Shown: in pieces, positions 15,382-25,439 of the stretch | Layout: each line of letters opens with the position of its first letter | How positions within the stretch are numbered: the stretch's first letter is position 1 | DNA from: Wenjunlia tyrosinilytica | Lineage (GTDB): Bacteria; Actinomycetota; Actinomycetes; Streptomycetales; Streptomycetaceae | Assembly: GCF_014646055.1 (NCBI RefSeq) | Contig: NZ_BMMS01000011.1 | Coordinates: 106,167 to 170,166, forward strand | Direction: 5' to 3' | DNA: 64,000 bases | Program-made: the position numbers and the translations under genes | Notes under the pieces: model-generated | What the model saw: only the letters and a program-made list of their open reading frames with translations | Told to the model about the DNA's origin: nothing | Database searches by the model: none

Positions 15382-18219
15382 CTAGAGCAGCCCGTCCCAC
15401 ATCTGTTCGAGCAGGACCGCCCACCAGTTGTCCGGCGAGGACAGCGAAGGGGGATCGAGCGCGGCCAGCTGCGCCTGGAAGTCGACCGTCCAGCGGCCCG
15501 CCTGGTCCGGTGTCAGGCCCACCCTCAGCCGCCACATACGGCCGAGCAGGGCAAGGCAGCGCACGAACTCCGGCAGTCCGCTGTTGACGAACTGCGGCAC
15601 GGCGGGGTGCCCGCCAGGGTCCGCCTCCAGGGGCACGGCGACTATCGCCGCCGTCCCGTACTGGACGCACAGCTGGCGGCCGAAGTCATTGCCCATGACC
15701 AGGTAGGAGGCGGCGTCCGGGCCCGGCTGGAGACCGCGCTCCACCGCCAGCTCGGCGAGCGTCGGCACCGGGCGGCCCGGCTGCGCCTGCGCCCAGAAGA
15801 ACGGGCCGAAGTCGACCGGCAGCCCGGCCCACACCAGCGTGGTGGCGACCGCCTCCGGCACTCCGGCACGTGAGACCGCGCGCTGGTCGAACCGGAACAC
15901 CCCTTGCGGGCCGAATGCCTGAGCGAGCTCATGCGCGATGCCGTCGGGGGCGATCGGGGGGATCTGCTGCACCTGGTGGGGGTGCGGCAGCGGGACCCGC
16001 TGCGGACGGGGACGGGCGGGACCGCCCGCCACCTGGTGCAGCTCGCCCTGGTGCTCCATCAGATGGTTGACGCCCTGCTGGCGCGAGGCGTGGTCACGGC
16101 CGTACGGCGCGGTGTGGCTGATCCGCACCGACGGCCAGGACTCATGGATCATGCGCGAGCAGTAGCCGCCGGGCAGATCGCACGACTCGAGCTCGGTGTG
16201 CAGCTCCAGCACCTGCTGCGGAGGAACGTTCAGCGCACGCAGCTCATGCAGGATCTGCCACTCCGGGTGCGGGGTGCCGGGCGCGCTGCGCCGGATGATC
16301 TGCTGTTCCGAGCCGTCGGGCGCGCGGTAGCGCAGCACGGCCATGTAACCCGGCCCCACGGTGGGCACCCCCGGCTGCACGGGATGCGGTTGAGGAGCCA
16401 TCGGCCGACCGGGGACGGGCTGGCCGGGCACCGGCCGACCCGGAATGTGCTGGCCCGGTACCTGCTGGCCGGGCACCGGCTGGCCGGGAAAGTGCTGTCC
16501 CGGCACCTGCTGGCCGACCGGCGGCGCGGGCGGCTGCCCGCCGTGCGCGAACGCGCCCGGTGGAGGAGGCGGCGGAGGCGGTGCGCCCTGGCCCGCCGGT
16601 GGATGCGCGAGCACCGTCGGGGCCGCGTGGCCGCCGGAGGGGTCGCCCGGTCCCGGTCCCGGTGGCGCGGGTGCCGGTCCGGGCGGGGGCGGGACGTGGC
16701 CCCCTTCGCCCGGACCGACCGGAGGCATGAGCCGCGTCGGGACATAGCCGCCCGCACCGGCGCCGGGAGGAGCCGACGGATCCGGCACGGCAGTGCCGTG
16801 CCCGGGTGTGCGGGACGCCTTGGCCGTCTCCTCGTCGGCGACGGAGGAGGGGTTCTGCCAGCCGTGCGGGGCGGGCGGAGGCGGAGGAGGCGCGCCGTGG
16901 CCGGAGGGCGGAGGCGTCTGCCCGGACGGCGGGGCGAACATCGTCGGCGCCGCGTGAGCGTCCGCGGCGTCACCCGCGCCGGGCTGCGGGCCCGGCTGCG
17001 GGTAGGCGTAGCCGCCACCGCCCTGCGACGGCTGGGGCTGTCCCTGCGGGTACGGCTGTCCCTGCGGATACGGCCGGCCCTGCGGCTGCGGCTCCTCCTG
17101 GGCCGCCCGCTTCTTGCGCCTGCCGAGCAGACCGCGCTTGGGCGCGGGCTCCGGGGCGGGGGGCGGCGTCCGGCCCTGGCCCGGGATCGCGAACCCGTCG
17201 TCGCCCGGCGGGGCGAACAGCGTCGGCGCCGCAGCGGGGGCATCGCCGTCCGAGGGCTGCGCCGACTGCCAGGGCCGGCCGGACTGCGGCTGCGCGCCCT
17301 GCGGCTGCGCGCCCTGCGGCTGCGCGCCCTGCGGCGGACCGTCCTGCGGGTCCTCGCCACCGGTGGGCAGCGGAGAGGTGATCTTCAGGGGCGGCGGGCC
17401 GTCGGGGTCCCTGCTGCCGGCGGGCAGCAGTTCCGTGCGGGCCTCCGAGCCGGGTGGGGCGTCCTCGGGCTCCGCGGGGGTGGAGTCCCGCACGTCCTCC
17501 GGAACGATCGGCGGAGCGAACACGGTCGGCGGCGGCGCCACGGAACCGGCTCCGACGCTGTCGTTGGTGTCCGCGCCGTCCCAGGGCGTCGCGGACGAGG
17601 GCCCGGCCGACGGCTCCGGCGAGGGCGAGGGCCCGGGCGCGGGCCCGGCCTCGGGTGCCGCCGTGGGCACGGCCGCGTCGTCGACCGGCGCCGATGCGGA
17701 GGAGGACGGCGGCGTGGACGTCGGCCGCGTGGAGGCCGCCTGGGGCGTGGACGCCGGAGGAGCGGACGTGCCGAACCCGGCCCGCCCCGCGGACTCCGAC
17801 TGCTCCTGCGGCTCGGAGGAGGAGGAGGAGGACTTGGTGCCGTTGGGGATCCCCGCCGCGTCCGCCGCGTCCTGGAGCCACTGCGGCGGGCTCAGCAGGA
17901 AGGACGTCGCCTCCAGGTCGGTGCGCTTGGGCCGCTCGGGGGCTGGCGCGGCGGAGGCGGCGGTGCCGTACTCCTCCTCGTACCGGCGCACGACCTCACC
18001 GATCGGCAGCCCCGGCCACAGCGTGGCCTCGCCGCTGTCGCGGGCGATCACCAGGCGCACCTGGCCGTCGTCGGACTGCGGCCCGTCCTGGCGGTCCACT
18101 GCCCAGCACACGAAGCCGAGGTCGAACTCGCGCACCCGCACCTCGCGGCGCTGGTACGACGGCACCTCACCGTTGACCCACTGCTCGGCGCGCTCCTGCG
18201 CCTGCGCGAACGTCACCAA
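15382..18219 (-). CDS. Multidomain protein: Imm35-like, Pro-rich linker, deaminase-like, SUKH-4
   Basis: This 945-residue protein has no signal peptide or membrane helix. Residues 1-85 (ending VVRRYEEEYG) resemble the YrhB/Imm35 immunity fold. Residues about 115-620 are Pro/Gly/Gln-rich with a recurring APTxFAPP-like motif and PVPGQ repeats. Residues about 624-745 look like a deaminase-fold domain, with H651-P-E653 followed by C680 and C687 as possible zinc ligands. Residues about 760-900 match SUKH-4 immunity proteins (GVFRFDQ, YLVMGNDFGRQL, PQFVNSGLPEF). In polymorphic toxin systems these domains normally sit on separate proteins. The start is TTG at 18219 with AGGAG 7 nt upstream; GTG one codon later is also possible. 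Substrate and partner are unknown. Confidence 0.7.
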   Translation of the reverse strand: MVTFAQAQERAEQWVNGEVPSYQRREVRVREFDLGFVCWAVDRQDGPQSDDGQVRLVIARDSGEATLWPGLPIGEVVRRYEEEYGTAASAAPAPERPKRTDLEATSFLLSPPQWLQDAADAAGIPNGTKSSSSSSEPQEQSESAGRAGFGTSAPPASTPQAASTRPTSTPPSSSASAPVDDAAVPTAAPEAGPAPGPSPSPEPSAGPSSATPWDGADTNDSVGAGSVAPPPTVFAPPIVPEDVRDSTPAEPEDAPPGSEARTELLPAGSRDPDGPPPLKITSPLPTGGEDPQDGPPQGAQPQGAQPQGAQPQSGRPWQSAQPSDGDAPAAAPTLFAPPGDDGFAIPGQGRTPPPAPEPAPKRGLLGRRKKRAAQEEPQPQGRPYPQGQPYPQGQPQPSQGGGGYAYPQPGPQPGAGDAADAHAAPTMFAPPSGQTPPPSGHGAPPPPPPAPHGWQNPSSVADEETAKASRTPGHGTAVPDPSAPPGAGAGGYVPTRLMPPVGPGEGGHVPPPPGPAPAPPGPGPGDPSGGHAAPTVLAHPPAGQGAPPPPPPPPGAFAHGGQPPAPPVGQQVPGQHFPGQPVPGQQVPGQHIPGRPVPGQPVPGRPMAPQPHPVQPGVPTVGPGYMAVLRYRAPDGSEQQIIRRSAPGTPHPEWQILHELRALNVPPQQVLELHTELESCDLPGGYCSRMIHESWPSVRISHTAPYGRDHASRQQGVNHLMEHQGELHQVAGGPARPRPQRVPLPHPHQVQQIPPIAPDGIAHELAQAFGPQGVFRFDQRAVSRAGVPEAVATTLVWAGLPVDFGPFFWAQAQPGRPVPTLAELAVERGLQPGPDAASYLVMGNDFGRQLCVQYGTAAIVAVPLEADPGGHPAVPQFVNSGLPEFVRCLALLGRMWRLRVGLTPDQAGRWTVDFQAQLAALDPPSLSSPDNWWAVLLEQMWDGLL

Positions 18220-18259: not shown

Positions 18260-19267
18260 TCACTCCCCCACCTGGACGGCGTACGCGAAGCCGCCGTCCA
18301 CCATCAGATTGGCCACGGTCTCCAGCTCAGGGGGGTTCCCGGCCAGCCGCAGCAGGAAGGCGTCCAGGTCGTCGCCGCACGGCAGCAGCAGTTCCTCCGT
18401 CCGCTGCTGGACGGAGCGCCCGTCGTGGTCGCGTGCGTCGTCGTGGGCGCAGAACCACACCGTGCCCTTGCCCTCGCCCTTCACCTTGACGGCGAGGATC
18501 CCGCCCTGGACGTAGCCGATGGCCAGGTAGTCCTTGGTCAGATGGTCACGCAGGCACTTGTTGGCGTACACGAGGTCGTTGACGGCGGCCTCGTCGCGGA
18601 CGGTGAAGAACGGCTGGTCGAGCAGGAGGCCGAGCTCCGGGTCGAGCGCCACCCCGACGGGGGCGCAGCCGCCCGCCGCCTTGAGGAAGGTCCGGTAGGC
18701 GCCGGGCAGCCGGTAGCCGAGGTCCTCCTCGACGCCGAGGACCTGCTCCTCGGTCACCGCCACCGGGTCCTTGGGCAGGGCGAAGTGGACGGGGCGCTGG
18801 TCCTGGAGCGGGCGGGTGCCGCGCTTGGCGTGGTCGGCGGTCGAGGTGGCCAGGCCGCCGTGGTGGCGCAGCAGGCTCTTGACCTCGACGGGGATGAGCT
18901 CCAGGCCGCGGGTGTTGGCGACGTGGTGCCAGGTCCAGCCGTGCGGGGTGGCGACCTCCGGGAGGTTCCGCCACAGTTCGTGGCCGGAGCGGGCGAGGGC
19001 GACATTGGCGGACACGTAGTCGGTCAGGCGCATCTCGTCGACGCCGAAGCCCTCGGGCGGCTCGGCGATCTCGGCGGCCGCCCGGGCGTAGGGCGAGAAG
19101 TCCGGGATGCCGTCCTCGTCCACCTGCACCCCTTGGGGGTGGCGGGCTGCGCGGACCGGGTCCGGGAAGTGCACGACCTGCCCGGCGTAGGCCGCGTTGG
19201 GCGGCGTCCCTTCTCCGGGCAACGGTCCTCCGGGCGTGGCCGGAGCACCGGGCCGACCTGTCGTCAT
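18260..19267 (-). CDS. HNH (WHH-type) nuclease-like domain fused to SUKH-1 (SMI1/KNR4)
   Basis: This 335-residue soluble protein appears to join a toxin-like nuclease to an immunity domain. Residues 53-61 are GIPDFSPYA and residues 111-115 are WTWHH, followed by LELIPVEVKSLLRHHGG (122-138). This is the pattern of the WHH/LHH HNH toxin nucleases. Residues about 173-310 match SMI1/KNR4 (VEEDLGYRLPGAYRTFLKAAGG, then LDPELGLLL and VWFCAHDD). The ATG has AGGGGG 8 nt upstream. It lies 40 bp before the 945-residue deaminase/SUKH-4 gene on the same strand, so the two probably form an operon. Nuclease activity is inferred from motifs only. Confidence 0.72.
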   Translation of the reverse strand: MTTGRPGAPATPGGPLPGEGTPPNAAYAGQVVHFPDPVRAARHPQGVQVDEDGIPDFSPYARAAAEIAEPPEGFGVDEMRLTDYVSANVALARSGHELWRNLPEVATPHGWTWHHVANTRGLELIPVEVKSLLRHHGGLATSTADHAKRGTRPLQDQRPVHFALPKDPVAVTEEQVLGVEEDLGYRLPGAYRTFLKAAGGCAPVGVALDPELGLLLDQPFFTVRDEAAVNDLVYANKCLRDHLTKDYLAIGYVQGGILAVKVKGEGKGTVWFCAHDDARDHDGRSVQQRTEELLLPCGDDLDAFLLRLAGNPPELETVANLMVDGGFAYAVQVGE

Positions 19268-19639
19268 TGCGGTTGCCCCCTGCTGGATGACACTGTTGGG
19301 CCACAGCCTATGGGGTCGCGCGACGGTCGGACGCCCTGCGTCCGGGTCGGTCCGGGCTCACGCCCGTCAGCTCATGTCACCGCCTGTCGGCTCGTGCCGC
19401 CGCGCCCGGTTGGCCTCGGGCGGTTCTCCACCCGCCCGGTGACGGTGTCCACTGACGAGGTCCACCGGTTCGCCGTGAACACCACCGGCTCCTCACCGGC
19501 GGACGGAGCGGGGACGCTCCGGCGCAGGGTCGAGCATTCCGCTCGCCCGGCGTGAAGCAAAGGGACTCGACAGGGACATGGCGCAGGGACGTGACGCAGT
19601 GACATGGCGGCGGCCGGACAGGCCCGGCCACGGACAGGC
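19268..19639. other. Gene-free interval upstream of the SUKH operon
   Basis: These 372 bp between the SUKH-1 gene start and the first aminotransferase stop show no supported gene and no strong hairpin. They should contain the promoter of the SUKH operon. Confidence 0.5.
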
Positions 19640-20764
19640 TCAGATCATGACCGCCTTTCCCAGCGCCTCCGCCACCCGCAGCTGCTGCGCCTCGGTGATC
19701 TGCGGGAACAACGGCAGCGTCAGCAGCTCGCCCGCGGCGCGCTCGGTGACCGGGTAGCGGCCCCGCGCGGTCGAGGGCCCTGCGAACGCGGGCTGCCGGT
19801 GCACCGGCACCGGATAGTGCACGCCCGCGCCGATCCCCGCCGCGTGGAGCGCTGTCAGCACCTCGTCACGGCGTTCCACCCGCACGGCGTACAGGTGCCA
19901 GACGTGCTCATTGCCCGGAAGAGTGCTCGGCGGGCGTATCCCCTCGGCACCGCGGAGCAGGGCGTCGTAGCGGGCGGCGGCGGCCCGGCGGGCGGCGTTC
20001 CAGGCCGGGAGGCGGCGCAGCTTGGCCCTCAGCACCACCGCCTGGAGCGCGTCCAGGCGGGAGTTGAAACCGAACCGCTCGTGCACGTACTTCTGCCGCG
20101 AACCGTGGTCGCCCATCATGCGCACGGCCCGCTCCACCGCCTCGTCGCCGGTGAGGACCGCCCCCGCGTCGCCGTAGGCGCCGAGGTTCTTGCCCGGGTA
20201 GAAGCTCGTGGCCGCCGCCCGGCCCCAGCTCCCGGCGGCGCGCCCCTCCTGACGGGCGCCCTGGGCCTGGGCCGCGTCCTCCACCACCGGCAGCCCGTGG
20301 GCCTGCGCCAGCTCCAGCAGCGGCCCCATGGGGGCGAGTTGCCCATTGAGGTGCACGGGCAGCACGGCGGCCACGCCCGGGTCCTCCTCCAGGGCCGCGC
20401 GCACGGCCTCGGGGTCCATCAGCAGACACTCGTCGTCGACGTCGACCAGCACCGGCCGCAGCCCTGCCCGCACCACGGCCTCGACCGTGGCGACGAAGGT
20501 GTTCGCCGGGCAGACGACCCCGCCGCCGGCCGGCAGGTCCAGGGCGCGCAGGGCCAACTCCAGGGCGTCCGTGCCATTGCCCGCGCCCACGCAGGCCCGC
20601 ACCCCGCAGAACCGAGCGAACTCCCGCTCGAAGGCGTCGACTTCGGGGCCCTTGAGGAACCCCGTGGAGTCCACCACCCGCGCCCAGCCCTCGCGCACCT
20701 CGTCGGCGACCTCGGCGTGCGCCGCCGCCAGGTCCACCAGCGGGATCCGGTCGTCCTCAGGCAT
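19640..20764 (-). CDS. DegT/DnrJ/EryC1/StrS-family PLP aminotransferase (second in operon)
   Basis: This 374-residue enzyme belongs to the sugar aminotransferase family that adds an amino group to keto-sugar nucleotides using PLP. Family blocks are GAGNGTDALELALRAL, VLPVHLNGQLAPM and VVEDAAQAQGA. The internal-aldimine lysine is in SFYPGKNLGAYGDAG. The final block QITEAQQLRVAEAL is typical. The ATG at 20764 overlaps the stop of the preceding aminotransferase gene by 8 bp. It is the last gene of the four-gene amino-sugar operon. Which sugar carbon it aminates cannot be read from sequence. Confidence 0.9.
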   Translation of the reverse strand: MPEDDRIPLVDLAAAHAEVADEVREGWARVVDSTGFLKGPEVDAFEREFARFCGVRACVGAGNGTDALELALRALDLPAGGGVVCPANTFVATVEAVVRAGLRPVLVDVDDECLLMDPEAVRAALEEDPGVAAVLPVHLNGQLAPMGPLLELAQAHGLPVVEDAAQAQGARQEGRAAGSWGRAAATSFYPGKNLGAYGDAGAVLTGDEAVERAVRMMGDHGSRQKYVHERFGFNSRLDALQAVVLRAKLRRLPAWNAARRAAAARYDALLRGAEGIRPPSTLPGNEHVWHLYAVRVERRDEVLTALHAAGIGAGVHYPVPVHRQPAFAGPSTARGRYPVTERAAGELLTLPLFPQITEAQQLRVAEALGKAVMI

Positions 20765-21911
20765 CGCCGCCCCCCGACCCCTCCACGGTGCCCGCGGTCT
20801 CGAACAGCGCCTCGACCACGCGGTCCTGCTGCTCGGCGGTGAGCGAGTGGAACAGCGGCAGCGTCAGCGAGTGCCCGGTCAGCCGCTCGGTGTGCGGCAA
20901 CGGGACCCGCTCGCTCCCGGCGTAGGGCGGCTCCAGATGGGCGGCCATGATGCCGCGCCGCGCGGAGATCCCCCGCGCCGCCAGATGAGCCAGCACCCCG
21001 TTGCGCGGCATCGGGTGGCCGCGGCCCAACAGCAGCCAGCACGACTGGTAGTTGGTCGTGCCGTGCGCCGGATCCCCGACCAGTCGGGCCCCGGGGAGCC
21101 CCTTGAGGAGCTCGCGGTACCGCTCCGCCAGTTCCCTGCGCCTGGCCACCATCGCGGGCAGTTTGCGCAATTGCACCAGCCCCACCGCGGCCTGGATGTC
21201 GGTCATCCGGTAGTTGAAGCCCACCTCGCCGTAGCTCTCCGGCACCGCGCTGCCGGAGGCGTGCCGCTCGGCGGCGCCGACGCTCATCCCGTGCTCGCGC
21301 AGCCGCCGCAGCCGCGCCGCGACCGCCCCGTCGTCGCACGTGACCATGCCGCCCTCGCCGGTGGTGAGCACCTTGCGCGGGTGGAACGAGAACGCGGCCA
21401 GCCGCGCCCCCGCCCCCACCGGCCCGCCCCGGTAGGTGCTTCCGGCCCCGCAGGCGGCGTCCTCCACGACGGCGATGCCGCGCGGCTCGCACAGCGCCCG
21501 CACCCCGTCGAGGTCGACGGGCACCCCGCCCTGGTCGACGACGATCACCGCCCGGGTGCGGGCGGTCAGCAGCGGCTCGACGGAACCGGCCGTCAGATTG
21601 CCGCTCTCCTCGTCCACGTCGGCGAAGACCGGCACCGCGCCGACGTACCGCACCGCGTTGGCGGTGGCGATGAACGACAGGGAGGGCACCACGACCTCGT
21701 CGCCCTCACCGACCCCCGCCGCGACCAGGCACAGGTGCAGGGCGGCGGTGCAGGACGAGACCGCCACCGCGTGCCGCACCCCCAGCGCCTGCGCGAAGGC
21801 CCGTTCGAACCGCTCCACCCGGGGGCCCTGGGCCACCCACCCGGAGCGCACGGCCTCCGCCGCGGCCTCGGCCTCCTCCTGGCCGAGCCACGGCACCATG
21901 ACGGGGATCAC
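20757..21911 (-). CDS. DegT/DnrJ/EryC1/StrS-family PLP aminotransferase (first in operon)
   Basis: This 384-residue sugar aminotransferase shows the family opening VPWLGQEEAEAAAEAVRSGW and AVSSCTAALHLCLVAAGV. VVEDAACGAGSTYRG and the PLP lysine in SFHPRKVLTTGEGG follow. I chose the GTG at 21911 because it overlaps the epimerase stop as GTGA and has GGGAGG just upstream. A GTG five codons earlier lacks a ribosome site. Together with the next gene it gives two different aminotransferases in one operon, so the final sugar may carry two amino groups or the enzymes act on separate intermediates. Confidence 0.9.
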   Translation of the reverse strand: MIPVMVPWLGQEEAEAAAEAVRSGWVAQGPRVERFERAFAQALGVRHAVAVSSCTAALHLCLVAAGVGEGDEVVVPSLSFIATANAVRYVGAVPVFADVDEESGNLTAGSVEPLLTARTRAVIVVDQGGVPVDLDGVRALCEPRGIAVVEDAACGAGSTYRGGPVGAGARLAAFSFHPRKVLTTGEGGMVTCDDGAVAARLRRLREHGMSVGAAERHASGSAVPESYGEVGFNYRMTDIQAAVGLVQLRKLPAMVARRRELAERYRELLKGLPGARLVGDPAHGTTNYQSCWLLLGRGHPMPRNGVLAHLAARGISARRGIMAAHLEPPYAGSERVPLPHTERLTGHSLTLPLFHSLTAEQQDRVVEALFETAGTVEGSGGGDA

Positions 21912-22894
21912 CGCGCCTCCCGCCACCAGGCCACGAGCCGGCGCAGCCCCTCGTCGAGGCCGATCTCGGGCTTCCAGGCCAGCTCCGCCTCGGCCCGGGA
22001 GATGTCGGCCAGGCGGCGTGTCACGCCGTTGACCGCGCGCTCCGGGCCGTGCTCGACCGGCAGATCGCAGTCCATCGCCCTCAGCAGCGCCTCGGCCAGA
22101 CCCAGCAGCGACACCTCCGTACCGGTGGCGATGTTGTAGACGGTGTCCGTCACCGGGGCCCCGGCCGCCGCCAGATTGGCGCGGGCGATGTCCTCGGTGT
22201 ACACGAAGTCCATCGTCTGGCTGCCGTCACCGAAGACCAGCGGCGGCTTCCCCTGCTCGATCCGCTCCATCCAGCGGATCAGCACCTCGGTGTAGAGGCC
22301 GTGCACATCCATCCTCGGCCCGTACACGTTGAAGTAGCGCAGTGCCACGTAGTCCAGGCCGTACATGGCGTGGAAGCTGCGCAGCAGGCCCTCGTTGAAG
22401 GTCTTGGCCGCGCCGTACAGCGTGTCGTTGGCCCACGGCGACTGCGTCTCGGGGGTGGGGAAGGTGTCCGCCAGCCCGTACACCGACGCGGAGGACGAGG
22501 CCACGACCTTGCCGACTCCCGCCTCCACCGCCGCCTCCAGCACGTCGAAGGTGCCGTCCACCAGCACTTCCAGCGCCAGCCTCGGCTCCTCGGCGCACTG
22601 GGTGATGCGGATGGCCGCGAGATGGAAGACCACGTCGGTGCCGTCCATCAGGCCCCGCAGCAGCCCCCGGTCGCGGATGTCGCCCTTGACCGTGCGCAGC
22701 CGTGCCCCGGCCGAGCCCTTTGCCTCCGAGCGCTTCGCCTCCGACAGATTCCGCAGGCGCCCGCGCACGAAGCTGTCGAGGACGACGACCTCGCGGGCGC
22801 CCGCGTCGAGCAGCTGGTCCACCACCGTGGAGCCGATCGTCCCGGCGCCCCCGGTGACCAGGCACCGGCTCCCCGACAGGCTCACGCTCCTCAC
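21908..22894 (-). CDS. NAD-dependent sugar-nucleotide epimerase/dehydratase
   Basis: This is a 328-residue extended short-chain dehydrogenase. The Rossmann motif VTGGAGTIGSTVV is near the N-terminus. Asp in VVLDSFVRG binds the ribose, and VVASSSASVYG followed by LYGAAK supplies the Ser and Tyr-x3-Lys catalytic residues. The C-terminus (VTRRLADISRAEAELAWKP) is typical of UDP-hexose epimerases. The GTG start at 22894 overlaps the oxidoreductase stop by 4 bp, with GGAGG upstream. It lies between the oxidoreductase and two aminotransferases of one operon. Confidence 0.92.
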   Translation of the reverse strand: MRSVSLSGSRCLVTGGAGTIGSTVVDQLLDAGAREVVVLDSFVRGRLRNLSEAKRSEAKGSAGARLRTVKGDIRDRGLLRGLMDGTDVVFHLAAIRITQCAEEPRLALEVLVDGTFDVLEAAVEAGVGKVVASSSASVYGLADTFPTPETQSPWANDTLYGAAKTFNEGLLRSFHAMYGLDYVALRYFNVYGPRMDVHGLYTEVLIRWMERIEQGKPPLVFGDGSQTMDFVYTEDIARANLAAAGAPVTDTVYNIATGTEVSLLGLAEALLRAMDCDLPVEHGPERAVNGVTRRLADISRAEAELAWKPEIGLDEGLRRLVAWWREAR

Positions 22895-24108
22895 AGCGCA
22901 CCACCTCCGGCCGAAGCGGCACGGCCGGCCGCAACGGCGGGAGAGGCGGGACCAGCGGTCCCGGCAACCGCGGCCGCGCCGACCGCCGGGGCCGCCAACG
23001 GGGCCCCGCCGGGGACCCGCGGGAGCCGGCCGCCCGTGACCGGCACGGTCAGCCCGCCCTCCTCCAGGCTGCGGGTCGCCGCGTGCAGCAGCGACAGCAC
23101 CCGCGCCCCGGCCCGCCCGTCGGTCAGCGGCGTCCTGCCCCGCAGGATCGAGGCCGCGAACTCCTGCGTCATCGCCAGCAGCGCCTCGTGCTCCGGCAGC
23201 GCGGGAGCCACCATGTCGCCGACGCGGTAGGCCACCAGCGCCCGGTGCCTGATGTCCTCGGTCATCCGGTCGGGCGGGGTCAGATCCACCCCGCGGTCGT
23301 AGACGGTCAGCCTCTGCTGGGGATTGAGGTCGTCCCACAGCACCGTGCGCCGCGAGCCGCCGATGATCGTGGTGCGCACCTTCGTCGGCGACAGCCAGTT
23401 GACATGGCAGTGCGCCAGCGCGCCGCTGGACAGATGCACCGTCAGATAGGCCACGCAGGAGCGGCCCGCGCCGATCGGATCGGCCGCCTGCGCGCTGACC
23501 CCGACCGGCTCCACCCCGTCCGGCAGCACGAAGTCCAGGATGGACAGGTCGTGCGGCGCCAGGTCCCACAGCACATCGACGTCCGGCTGCACCAGCCCGA
23601 GGTTGATCCGCACCGAGTCGAAGAACTGGACGTCCCCCAGGTCCCCCGACCTGATCAGCTCCCTGATCCGGCGCACCACCGGCGTGTAGCAGAACGTGTG
23701 GTCGCACATGAGCACAAGGCCGCGGTCGTCGGCCACGCGCACCAGCTCGAGCGCGTCCTCGATCCGCGTGGTGATCGGCTTCTCCACCAGGACGTGCTTA
23801 CCGGCCTCCAGGGCCGCCCTGGCCAGCCGGTAATGGCTGCCCGCCGGCGTCGCGATCAGCACCGCGCGCACCGCCGGATCGTCCAGCACTTCGTCGAACG
23901 ACTCCGTCGCCCTCACCGTGCTGTACGGGCCGAGCACCCGTGCGGCCCTGTCCAGGTCCAGATCGCACAGCCAGCGGACCGAGAACTCCGGCACCGCTTG
24001 GGCGTTCCTGATCAGGTTCGGACCCCAGTAGCCCGCGCCGATGACGGCGATCCCCACGGGCTCCGCGGATCCAGGTCCATGACTGTCCAATAATGGCATG
24101 GCTGACAT
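22891..24108 (-). CDS. Gfo/Idh/MocA-family sugar-nucleotide oxidoreductase
   Basis: This 405-residue NAD(P)-dependent oxidoreductase shows the Rossmann motif VIGAGYWGPNL near residue 22 and the catalytic EKP in VLVEKPIT. The HDLSILDFVLPD block follows. In WbpB/WlbA-type pathways such enzymes oxidise C3 of a UDP-N-acetylglucosaminuronic acid before transamination, which would fit the aminotransferases downstream; this is inference. Residues from about 360 on are an Ala/Pro-rich tail that family members usually lack. Leu6 is TTA (24091-24093), so the operon lead gene may depend on bldA. A GGGGGG tract precedes the ATG by 9 nt. Confidence 0.9.
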   Translation of the reverse strand: MSAMPLLDSHGPGSAEPVGIAVIGAGYWGPNLIRNAQAVPEFSVRWLCDLDLDRAARVLGPYSTVRATESFDEVLDDPAVRAVLIATPAGSHYRLARAALEAGKHVLVEKPITTRIEDALELVRVADDRGLVLMCDHTFCYTPVVRRIRELIRSGDLGDVQFFDSVRINLGLVQPDVDVLWDLAPHDLSILDFVLPDGVEPVGVSAQAADPIGAGRSCVAYLTVHLSSGALAHCHVNWLSPTKVRTTIIGGSRRTVLWDDLNPQQRLTVYDRGVDLTPPDRMTEDIRHRALVAYRVGDMVAPALPEHEALLAMTQEFAASILRGRTPLTDGRAGARVLSLLHAATRSLEEGGLTVPVTGGRLPRVPGGAPLAAPAVGAAAVAGTAGPASPAVAAGRAASAGGGAL

Positions 24109-24409
24109 CGCTCACTACCCCCCAGCCCTCATCCCTCCCCGGCCGGACGAGGCCGGCACGGCAGGAGGGGAACCCACGGCCGGACTCCCCTTCCGGTCCG
24201 CGGGCATGTCGAGTTCCTGAGAAAGAACGCTAGCGGGCACCGCCGACAACCGAGGGAGAATCACACAAACACGCGCTGTCACACAGAGCGGGGAAGACCT
24301 GTGACGCGCCGCTCAATCCACCCTGCGGGAGCACCCCGGTCTTCCGTTGCCCCGTCAGGTTTTGGCAGGCTGAGGCCCGCACGCCGGGGGAGCGTGCCGG
24401 AAAGGGACC
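24109..24409. other. Divergent promoter region: amino-sugar operon and deaminase gene
   Basis: This 301-bp spacer has no supported gene. A small stem, GCACGC with GCGTGC around a 7-nt loop near 24380-24400, sits just before the deaminase start. Otherwise nothing distinctive was seen. Confidence 0.5.
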
Positions 24410-24943
24410 ATGATCGTGAACGTGCACGCAGAGCCACGACCACCCGCGGCCACCGCCGCGAACCAGGCAGACCCCAGGCTCGACTGGCAGGCCACCGCCA
24501 CACCCCGAGCACCCGGCCGCGCCCCCGCCCTGCGCCACCACCGCGACGGGATACTCCCGGCGGCCGCCGCCGCCCTCTCCGTCAGGGGCTCGACCTACAC
24601 CTGCGCCGGCAGCAAGCCCGAGCAGGCCCCCGCCCTGCACCCGCTCGTGCGGGACTTCCTCGACGCCCTGCCCGTCCCCCAGCGCGAACGGTTCACCGGG
24701 CGCTGTCCCGAGGCCGTGCTGCTGTCGCAGTACCTGACCACCGTGGACGACGGGCGCAGCAAACGCGCCTCCCGCAAGGCGCTCAGCCTCAGCGAGGCCA
24801 AACGCGCCCTGAAGCACGCCAAGCTCACCACCCGCCGCATACGCGAGGACGGCGACCCCGAGCACGGCAGCTTCGCCCCGCCGTGCCGCTCCTGCGCCCC
24901 GATGCTCGACCACTTCGGTGTCCGGACGGTGGATGGAGCATGA
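24410..24943 (+). CDS. YwqJ-like deaminase-fold protein
   Basis: This is a 177-residue soluble protein. The zinc-site pattern of the cytidine-deaminase superfamily is visible as C99-P-E101 (GRCPEAVLLSQYL) and P158-C159-R-S-C162 (HGSFAPPCRSCAPML). A CxE in place of HxE with PCxxC is typical of YwqJ-type toxin deaminases. It lacks the N-terminal delivery region usual for such toxins. It is followed after 7 bp by a SUKH-3 gene, matching the known deaminase-SUKH pairing. The start is uncertain: ATG at 24410, or GTG two codons on with a better-spaced AGGGA. The target nucleotide is unknown. Confidence 0.75.
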   Translation: MIVNVHAEPRPPAATAANQADPRLDWQATATPRAPGRAPALRHHRDGILPAAAAALSVRGSTYTCAGSKPEQAPALHPLVRDFLDALPVPQRERFTGRCPEAVLLSQYLTTVDDGRSKRASRKALSLSEAKRALKHAKLTTRRIREDGDPEHGSFAPPCRSCAPMLDHFGVRTVDGA

Positions 24944-24950
24944 TCGGCGC

Positions 24951-25439
24951 ATGACCACCGCTCGTTTCCCCGCCATCGTCGACTCCGCCCTGCGCGAGGC
25001 GGGCTGGCAGCCGGGCCGCTGGGACATGCCACAGGCCGAGGCATGGGCGGACCGGCTGCGGGCCCACACCTCACCGGGCGGGCACCAGCACAGCCTGTCC
25101 CCCGCGGCGGTCGAGGCATGGGCGGAGTTCGGGGGGCTGAGGGTCGAGGTGAGCGGCGCGGGACGGCAGATCGCCCGCACCCCCTTCACCCTCGACCCGC
25201 TGCGCGGCCTGCACCTGGCGCGCACCTTCTCCGACCTCGGGCGGGCGCTGGAGACCGAGGTGAGCCCGCTGGGCGAGGAGGCCGGCGGGCGGGCGGCCCT
25301 GGCCATCGACACCCAGGGCCGCGTCTACAGCCTCGACCACACCGGCGACTGGTTCCTCGGCCCCGACCTCGACCAGGCCCTGACCACACTGATCTCCGGC
25401 ATCCAGCCGGAGCGCCTCACCGTGGAAACGGCCCCATAG
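24951..25439 (+). CDS. SUKH-3 family immunity-like protein
   Basis: This 162-residue protein matches SUKH-3 in its ordered blocks: [62 protein letters not shown] and [21 protein letters not shown] proteins usually bind and neutralise nucleic-acid-degrading toxins. It begins 7 bp after the YwqJ-like deaminase, so it is the likely antidote. Earlier in-frame starts overlap the deaminase gene. The ATG at 24951 was chosen because the family similarity begins there. Confidence 0.85.

Follow-up and report, generated by a model that had tools for sequence, protein, structure and literature searches.

A core gene of Streptomycetaceae fuses a predicted XOO_2897-family deaminase to a SUKH-4 immunity-type domain

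Toxin and immunity domains are normally accessory, fast-changing weapons; what role might such a pair play when it is fixed in one core gene? The question is raised by a 64 000-nucleotide stretch of the Wenjunlia tyrosinilytica genome (contig NZ_BMMS01000011.1, positions 106,167 to 170,166; hereafter the window), in which the minus strand of 15382..18219 encodes a 945-residue fusion protein with a small N-terminal domain, a long linker, a deaminase domain and a SUKH-4 domain. Judging from its sequence and from structural models, we consider it about an even chance that the protein is a domesticated intracellular deaminase, restrained by SUKH-4 and probably regulated through the linker. That the enzyme might be restrained internally had been suggested by an earlier reading of the DNA (the original prediction), and we judge this idea to be right, as a prediction.

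The frame starts at a TTG (position 18219), a start that fits the MVT or MIT with which several homologues begin; read on the plus strand, 15382-18219 is interrupted by an internal stop. Pfam identifies an XOO_2897-like deaminase (PF14440) at residues 622-723 (16051..16356, minus strand, as for all features of this protein; E 4.3e-38, 129.9 bits, cut-off 27) and a SUKH-4 immunity-type domain (PF14435) at residues 762-939 (15403..15936; E 2.2e-51, 174.9 bits, cut-off 25.5). The Pfam scan found no domain in the protein beyond these two, and an NCBIfam scan gave zero matches at E ≤ 1. The predicted zinc-binding His and catalytic Glu lie in H651-P652-E653 (16261..16269), and the other predicted zinc ligands are C680 (16180..16182) and C687 (16159..16161). 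Residues 91-620 (16360..17949) are a Pro/Ala/Gly-rich and presumably disordered linker with repeated Thr motifs, preceded by the N-terminal domain (residues 1-90, 17950..18219). The N-terminus is charged, with no hydrophobic leader, and Pfam detects no trafficking domain. The reading frame, the domain order, the C-terminal SUKH-4 and the absence of an export leader are thus as originally predicted; all five active-site residues had been placed exactly, and a linker of about 500 residues compares with the roughly 530 found here.

The fusion gene is a core gene of its family and not a polymorphic toxin. It is carried by 288 of 297 sampled family genomes (E ≤ 1e-20). The nine without it are all three sampled genomes of genus g116, all four of g119 and one each of g127 and g2; g116 and g119 are the only genera without a match, and the g127 and g2 cases are drafts of 460 and 580 contigs. 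In a sample of 396 genomes from the phylum all 12 matches at E ≤ 1e-10 fell within the family. PF14440 was present in 34 of 296 genomes from the class, 28 of them from the family with strong scores and six others with weak ones, and none of the 20 listed genomes without a match belongs to the family. The Wenjunlia genome itself has one PF14440 match. The C-terminal part also has matches in four plasmid records, each at below 60% identity. The deaminase is internal and followed by SUKH-4, and the distribution is not patchy, which is not what characterizes a polymorphic toxin.

At least 559 relatives were found in named genomes. The best 80 of these come from Streptomyces, Actinacidiphila, Streptantibioticus and one actinomycete metagenome-assembled genome, and their C-terminal 325 residues are 79-86% identical to the window protein; on this basis we take the family sampled above to be the Streptomycetaceae. 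In the seven loci that hold both genes, the deaminase (82.4-87.2%) and SUKH-4 (80.2-87.7%) are about as similar to those of the window as is phosphoenolpyruvate carboxylase (83.4-84.8%, at least 878 residues aligned), and the fusion gene is about as conserved as this enzyme. The median ratios of non-synonymous to synonymous substitution rates are 0.30 (N-terminal domain), 0.24 (deaminase) and 0.23 (SUKH-4), estimates in which the synonymous rate is probably compressed by codon bias. The N-terminal domain and the C-terminal part share one open frame in 59 of 80 named loci; in the other 21 a contig end cuts the gene (17), the N-terminal domain lies elsewhere in the locus (three) or none was seen (one). 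The frame changes inside the gene in two loci (L162 and L168), perhaps through assembly errors, and in the L176 genome both the fusion gene and the gene upstream of it are frame-broken.

The active site is retained throughout this core set. The HPE/C..C motif is present in 132/132 distinct core deaminase sequences, a tally that excludes two fragments in which the motif columns are missing (L193 and L176). Loss of the His/Cys ligands across close homologues, which by the original prediction would have spoken against it, is therefore not seen. Complete retention is meaningful because relatives without the linker have so often lost the same residues: at least one is missing in 33 of 39 distinct linker-less proteins. 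These 39 comprise seven from a second actinobacterial family (f17), L219, 30 further loci and L259 (L260 repeats L231 and is uncounted); the 30 come from 30 chosen genomes, mostly with two or more matches, and are part of a longer listing. In f17, linker-less homologues occur in 7 of 200 genomes, and all seven have PPE in place of HPE and A/E/V and H/R in place of the two cysteines. Linker-less paralogues exist within the window's own family as well, and many g127 genomes share one altered type in which Ala replaces Glu and neither Cys is left (HPA/SW and similar). The order N-terminal domain, deaminase, SUKH-4 is found in 37/39 of the linker-less set (L151-L157, L219, L229-L259), with 6-19 residues between the first two; in the remaining two the N-terminal domain was not seen in the open frame. 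The architecture can thus persist without catalysis.

Some further features of the linker-less proteins were noted. Genomes of g127 often hold two or three such paralogues (range L229-L259). In L219 a 121-residue frame right behind the paralogue (2503-2865) contains a second copy of the N-terminal domain (25.6 bits). The neighbours of two linker-less homologues are metabolic genes, among which neither a toxin nor a SUKH partner was found.

A model of residues 616-945 (mean predicted local distance difference test, pLDDT, 91.8; predicted template modelling score, pTM, 0.90) contains a deaminase-like and a SUKH-like domain. The first has the order strand-strand-helix-strand-helix-strand-helix, with helix 1 beginning at H651/E653 and C687 immediately preceding helix 2. 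Structural comparison matches it to SUKH structures (YobK, 2prv, Z 8.5; Syd, 3ffv, Z 8.1; Knr4, Z 7.3), and the deaminase part matches APOBEC3H and cytidine deaminases (Z about 4-5). The top Foldseek rows are APOBEC1 and then DddA (rank 2). The model of the linker-less homologue L151 (pLDDT 87.6, pTM 0.76) matches Vibrio cholerae cytidine deaminase (Z 8.2) and DddA (6u08, Z 5.3). A sequence search of the PDB with residues 616-945 gave nothing meaningful, the best hit being a phage decoration protein (E 0.015). The secondary-structure order and the deaminases among the structural matches, none of them at a Foldseek E of 0.001, agree with the fold that the original prediction had put up for checking.

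The N-terminal domain is harder to place. The original prediction called it Imm35/YrhB-like; Imm35 (PF15567) is matched weakly (best E 0.0039) by the N-terminal domains of 4 of 12 family members scanned, and for the domain of the window protein Pfam gave no hit even at E 10. A search of the Wenjunlia genome for Imm35 gave no match at E 0.001, and a PDB sequence search with the domain gave none up to E 10. The sequence matches are at most suggestive of an Imm35 identity. In a linker-less homologue the domain is predicted to fold as helix-four strands-helix; its structural matches within the fold lists used (4exr, Z 6.3; YpmB, 2gu3, Z 5.7) may reflect merely a common arrangement.

The linker comparison drew on 103 proteins with long linkers from the loci retrieved, some of which belong to the same genome. 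These linkers span 279-983 residues, of which 61% are Pro, Ala or Gly. The stretch DLEATSFLLSPPQWLQDAAD (residues 101-120, 17860..17919) is conserved and holds the first Thr motif; EATSFLL occurs in 69/103 and LEATSFL in 59/103. The pattern [AP]T.[FLM][ALVM] is present on average 4.26 times per linker, as against 0.15 in shuffled linkers, and at least three times in 90/103; four looser control patterns gave linker/shuffle ratios of 0.9-1.9. Within the window, the frame of the 945-residue protein is the only one with three or more copies. We take these Thr motifs to resemble phospho-Thr sites of the kinase/FHA type, a point that a literature search did not settle.

Where might the gene have come from? 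In Streptomyces, accessory fusions of SUKH-4 and deaminase are plasmid-borne or present in a minority of the genomes (L143-L146, L225-L227, L261, L262). They have the reverse order, SUKH-4 first, and an intact motif in 9/9 distinct ones read. In 6/6 complete neighbourhoods scanned they adjoin a WXG100_2-deaminase gene and a separate SUKH-4 gene, and in five of these six also an AAA/NACHT- or WD40-like neighbour, most of these scoring below the Pfam cut-off. The recurrent locus, found on chromosomes as well as plasmids, has the fusion, the AAA/NACHT- or WD40-like protein, the WXG100_2-deaminase and the separate SUKH-4 (L225 5016-10071; L226 4467-9195, where the AAA/NACHT- or WD40-like protein was not recognised; L227 4440-9191; also L143, L145 and L146). 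WXG100 domains are linked to type VII secretion. Such fusions thus repeatedly accompany delivered toxins that carry the same toxin domain. Most simply, the core cassette would derive from an accessory WXG100 (type VII) toxin/immunity locus whose delivered toxin was lost.

The core gene has a conserved companion. The upstream gene (18260..19267, minus strand) lies 40 bases from it and encodes a 335-residue protein in which a WHH/colicin-DNase-like domain (Pfam, 48.5 bits, cut-off 25.1) is fused to SUKH-1 (SMI1/KNR4). It was found in 145/150 genomes, and the two genes are co-oriented in 83/83 loci that hold both, 16 of which exceed the ±700 base limit, as frames were measured from stop to stop. 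Despite the profile match, the full His motif of WHH is absent: Lys (K130 in the window, 18878..18880) replaces His in 62/62 aligned upstream proteins and in 73/73 distinct peptides, the latter collected with a pattern that excludes delivered WHH proteins by construction. Delivered WHH proteins, namely the large g119 proteins and a Sagittula HNH protein, keep His at this position. By its sequence the nuclease motif of the partner is altered.

In two g119 genomes without the deaminase gene, the gene for a large WHH protein is followed in turn by those for SUKH-1, for a fusion of WHH with SUKH-1 and for SUKH-3 joined to an N-domain-like segment; in these loci (L141 125-9806, L142 1-6176) a very large WXG100_2/Gln_amidase/WHH frame heads the array, WXG100_2 being seen only in L141. 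On a Sagittula plasmid (L228 4371-5783), next to genes for VgrG and PAAR, an HNH gene is followed by an SMI1/KNR4 gene of its own. With 25% identity these two correspond to the halves of the WHH-SUKH-1 fusion in the window, and the halves of the fusion thus occur as neighbouring genes.

A conserved TAGGCT (19305..19310, minus strand) stands 37 nucleotides before the ATG of the upstream gene, in an alignment of 61 upstream regions (the window and 60 of 70 regions); it is −10-like, presumably of the kind used by housekeeping genes. A SUKH-3 gene lies at 24918..25439 on the plus strand. In relatives SUKH-3 was found close to these two genes, encoded by the other strand, in 57/81 loci (one scan; orientation inferred from the antisense frame, 60/60), and in 13 of 20 divergent genomes it lay within the fetched stretch. 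An upstream candidate at 24230-25312 (minus strand) was rejected as the antisense frame of SUKH-3. In this genome the interval between SUKH-3 and the pair holds two DegT/DnrJ aminotransferase genes and one for a GFO/IDH oxidoreductase (19640-24108), an arrangement not seen in the relatives examined.

These observations can be assembled into a model. An ancestral WXG100-type toxin/immunity locus would have lost its delivery, and the putative enzyme would now act in the cytoplasm on nucleic acid or a nucleotide. SUKH-4 in the same chain would keep it in check, and the long, presumably disordered linker would tether this unit to the small N-terminal domain. More speculatively, the Thr motifs of the linker might set the state or location of the protein, and WHH-SUKH-1 and SUKH-3 might work together with it. 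A full version, in which a toxin-derived nucleic-acid or nucleotide deaminase serves the whole family as a permanent endogenous switch, with SUKH-4 acting in cis, phosphorylation of linker Thr shifting its state or localisation, and a control complex made up of the altered WHH-SUKH-1 together with SUKH-3, is possible, although we think it less likely than not.

Several points weigh against a restrained, active deaminase. Neither the 616-945 model nor that of L151 has a Foldseek match reaching E 0.001. The Thr pattern was picked after the linkers had been seen, and the linkers share descent. HPE/C..C is intact in 6/39 linker-less proteins, all from g127, and the presence of a linker is therefore no predictor of catalysis; a rule that every linker-less relative is altered (8/8 at first) was overturned by these six. 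Lastly, that the partner and so many of the linker-less relatives are altered shows that such fusions can dispense with enzyme activity.

The immunity domains themselves suggest another role. SUKH-4, perhaps with the N-terminal domain, might neutralise incoming deaminase toxins from competing bacteria, while the deaminase in its own chain is a placeholder or mimic that keeps SUKH-4 ready until a real toxin takes its place. SUKH domains are immunity domains and are found in polyimmunity proteins, according to the sections consulted of PMC3482391; the cassette includes SUKH-1, SUKH-3 and SUKH-4, the nuclease motif of the partner is altered, and the accessory fusions adjoin toxins with the same domain even though a separate SUKH-4 is also present. 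An arms race would be expected to drive fast change, however, and SUKH-4 is 77-88% identical over 80 named loci; nor would a mimic need the active site that every core sequence has kept. We regard such a decoy as rather unlikely.

Loss of catalytic residues in the linker-less relatives, often of zinc ligands and in one type that recurs across g127, together with a partner whose WHH motif is altered in all sequences examined, would also be consistent with a deaminase fold that serves, without catalysis, for binding within a SUKH protein complex, where zinc would have a structural role. Structure alone would not require the catalytic Glu, whereas E653 is kept along with the ligands in all 132 core sequences, and we think a pure scaffold unlikely.

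A defence effector, in which phage or another insult frees the deaminase from SUKH-4 and causes cell death or growth arrest, was among the ideas of the original prediction and is not favoured here. AAA/NACHT-type ATPases are common in conflict systems, and the AAA/NACHT- or WD40-like neighbours of five of the six accessory loci, mostly below the Pfam cut-off, would fit such a role. In the window, though, no such ATPase gene was seen next to the two core genes, and PADLOC found 0 families at E 0.1 for the three cassette proteins, which led us to reject a known anti-phage system. Defence genes are usually patchy, whereas this one is nearly universal in the family, and we consider the proposal improbable. 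An exported polymorphic toxin with an unusual fused immunity domain shares its deaminase family with WXG100_2 toxins, but the lack of a leader or trafficking domain, the internal and conserved toxin domain in place of a variable C-terminus and the core distribution make it extremely improbable, and it was rejected.

A domesticated, SUKH-4-restrained deaminase, if active, would give model organisms an enzyme of their own that edits or acts on nucleotides and has a built-in restraint, and it raises the question of which endogenous job requires a restrained base deaminase. The family carrying the fusion is a large group of antibiotic producers, and near-universal retention points to a weapon of conflict between bacteria that may have been tamed into an internal tool.

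How does the protein compare with known systems? The consulted parts of PMC3482391 describe polyimmunity proteins, report that SUKH is occasionally fused to toxins and list XOO2897 deaminases among SUKH-associated toxins; those of PMC7901873 describe deaminase toxins of other subfamilies that mutate DNA and have immunity proteins, and in those of PMC7159879 SUKH was not found. Toxin-SUKH fusions are thus already known as occasional; the Streptomyces gene and its core cassette were not found in the literature searched, and an earlier mention in the 2011 deaminase or SUKH papers is possible. DddA, SsdA and BaDTF3 have the deaminase fold in common with the window protein, as the structural matches to DddA indicate, but belong to other subfamilies, are delivered and have separate immunity proteins. 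With the SUKH-4 and polyimmunity proteins the window protein shares the SUKH-4 domain, and it would likewise have more than one immunity-type domain if its N-terminal domain is Imm35-like; it differs in its complete deaminase motif and family-wide conservation. The linker-less homologues have the same domain order in nearly all cases (37/39) and differ by the missing linker and, in 33 of 39, by the damaged site. The accessory Streptomyces fusions likewise join a deaminase with intact motif to SUKH-4 in a single polypeptide, but with SUKH-4 first and, in those read, neither the N-terminal domain nor the long linker. The XOO_2897-like polymorphic-toxin deaminases (PF14440) belong to the same Pfam family, with the same His-x-Glu and Cys...Cys arrangement as in WXG100_2 members; these toxins have leaders and separate immunity genes, whereas the window protein is leaderless, carries its deaminase internally, is fused to SUKH-4 and belongs to the core genome of its family.

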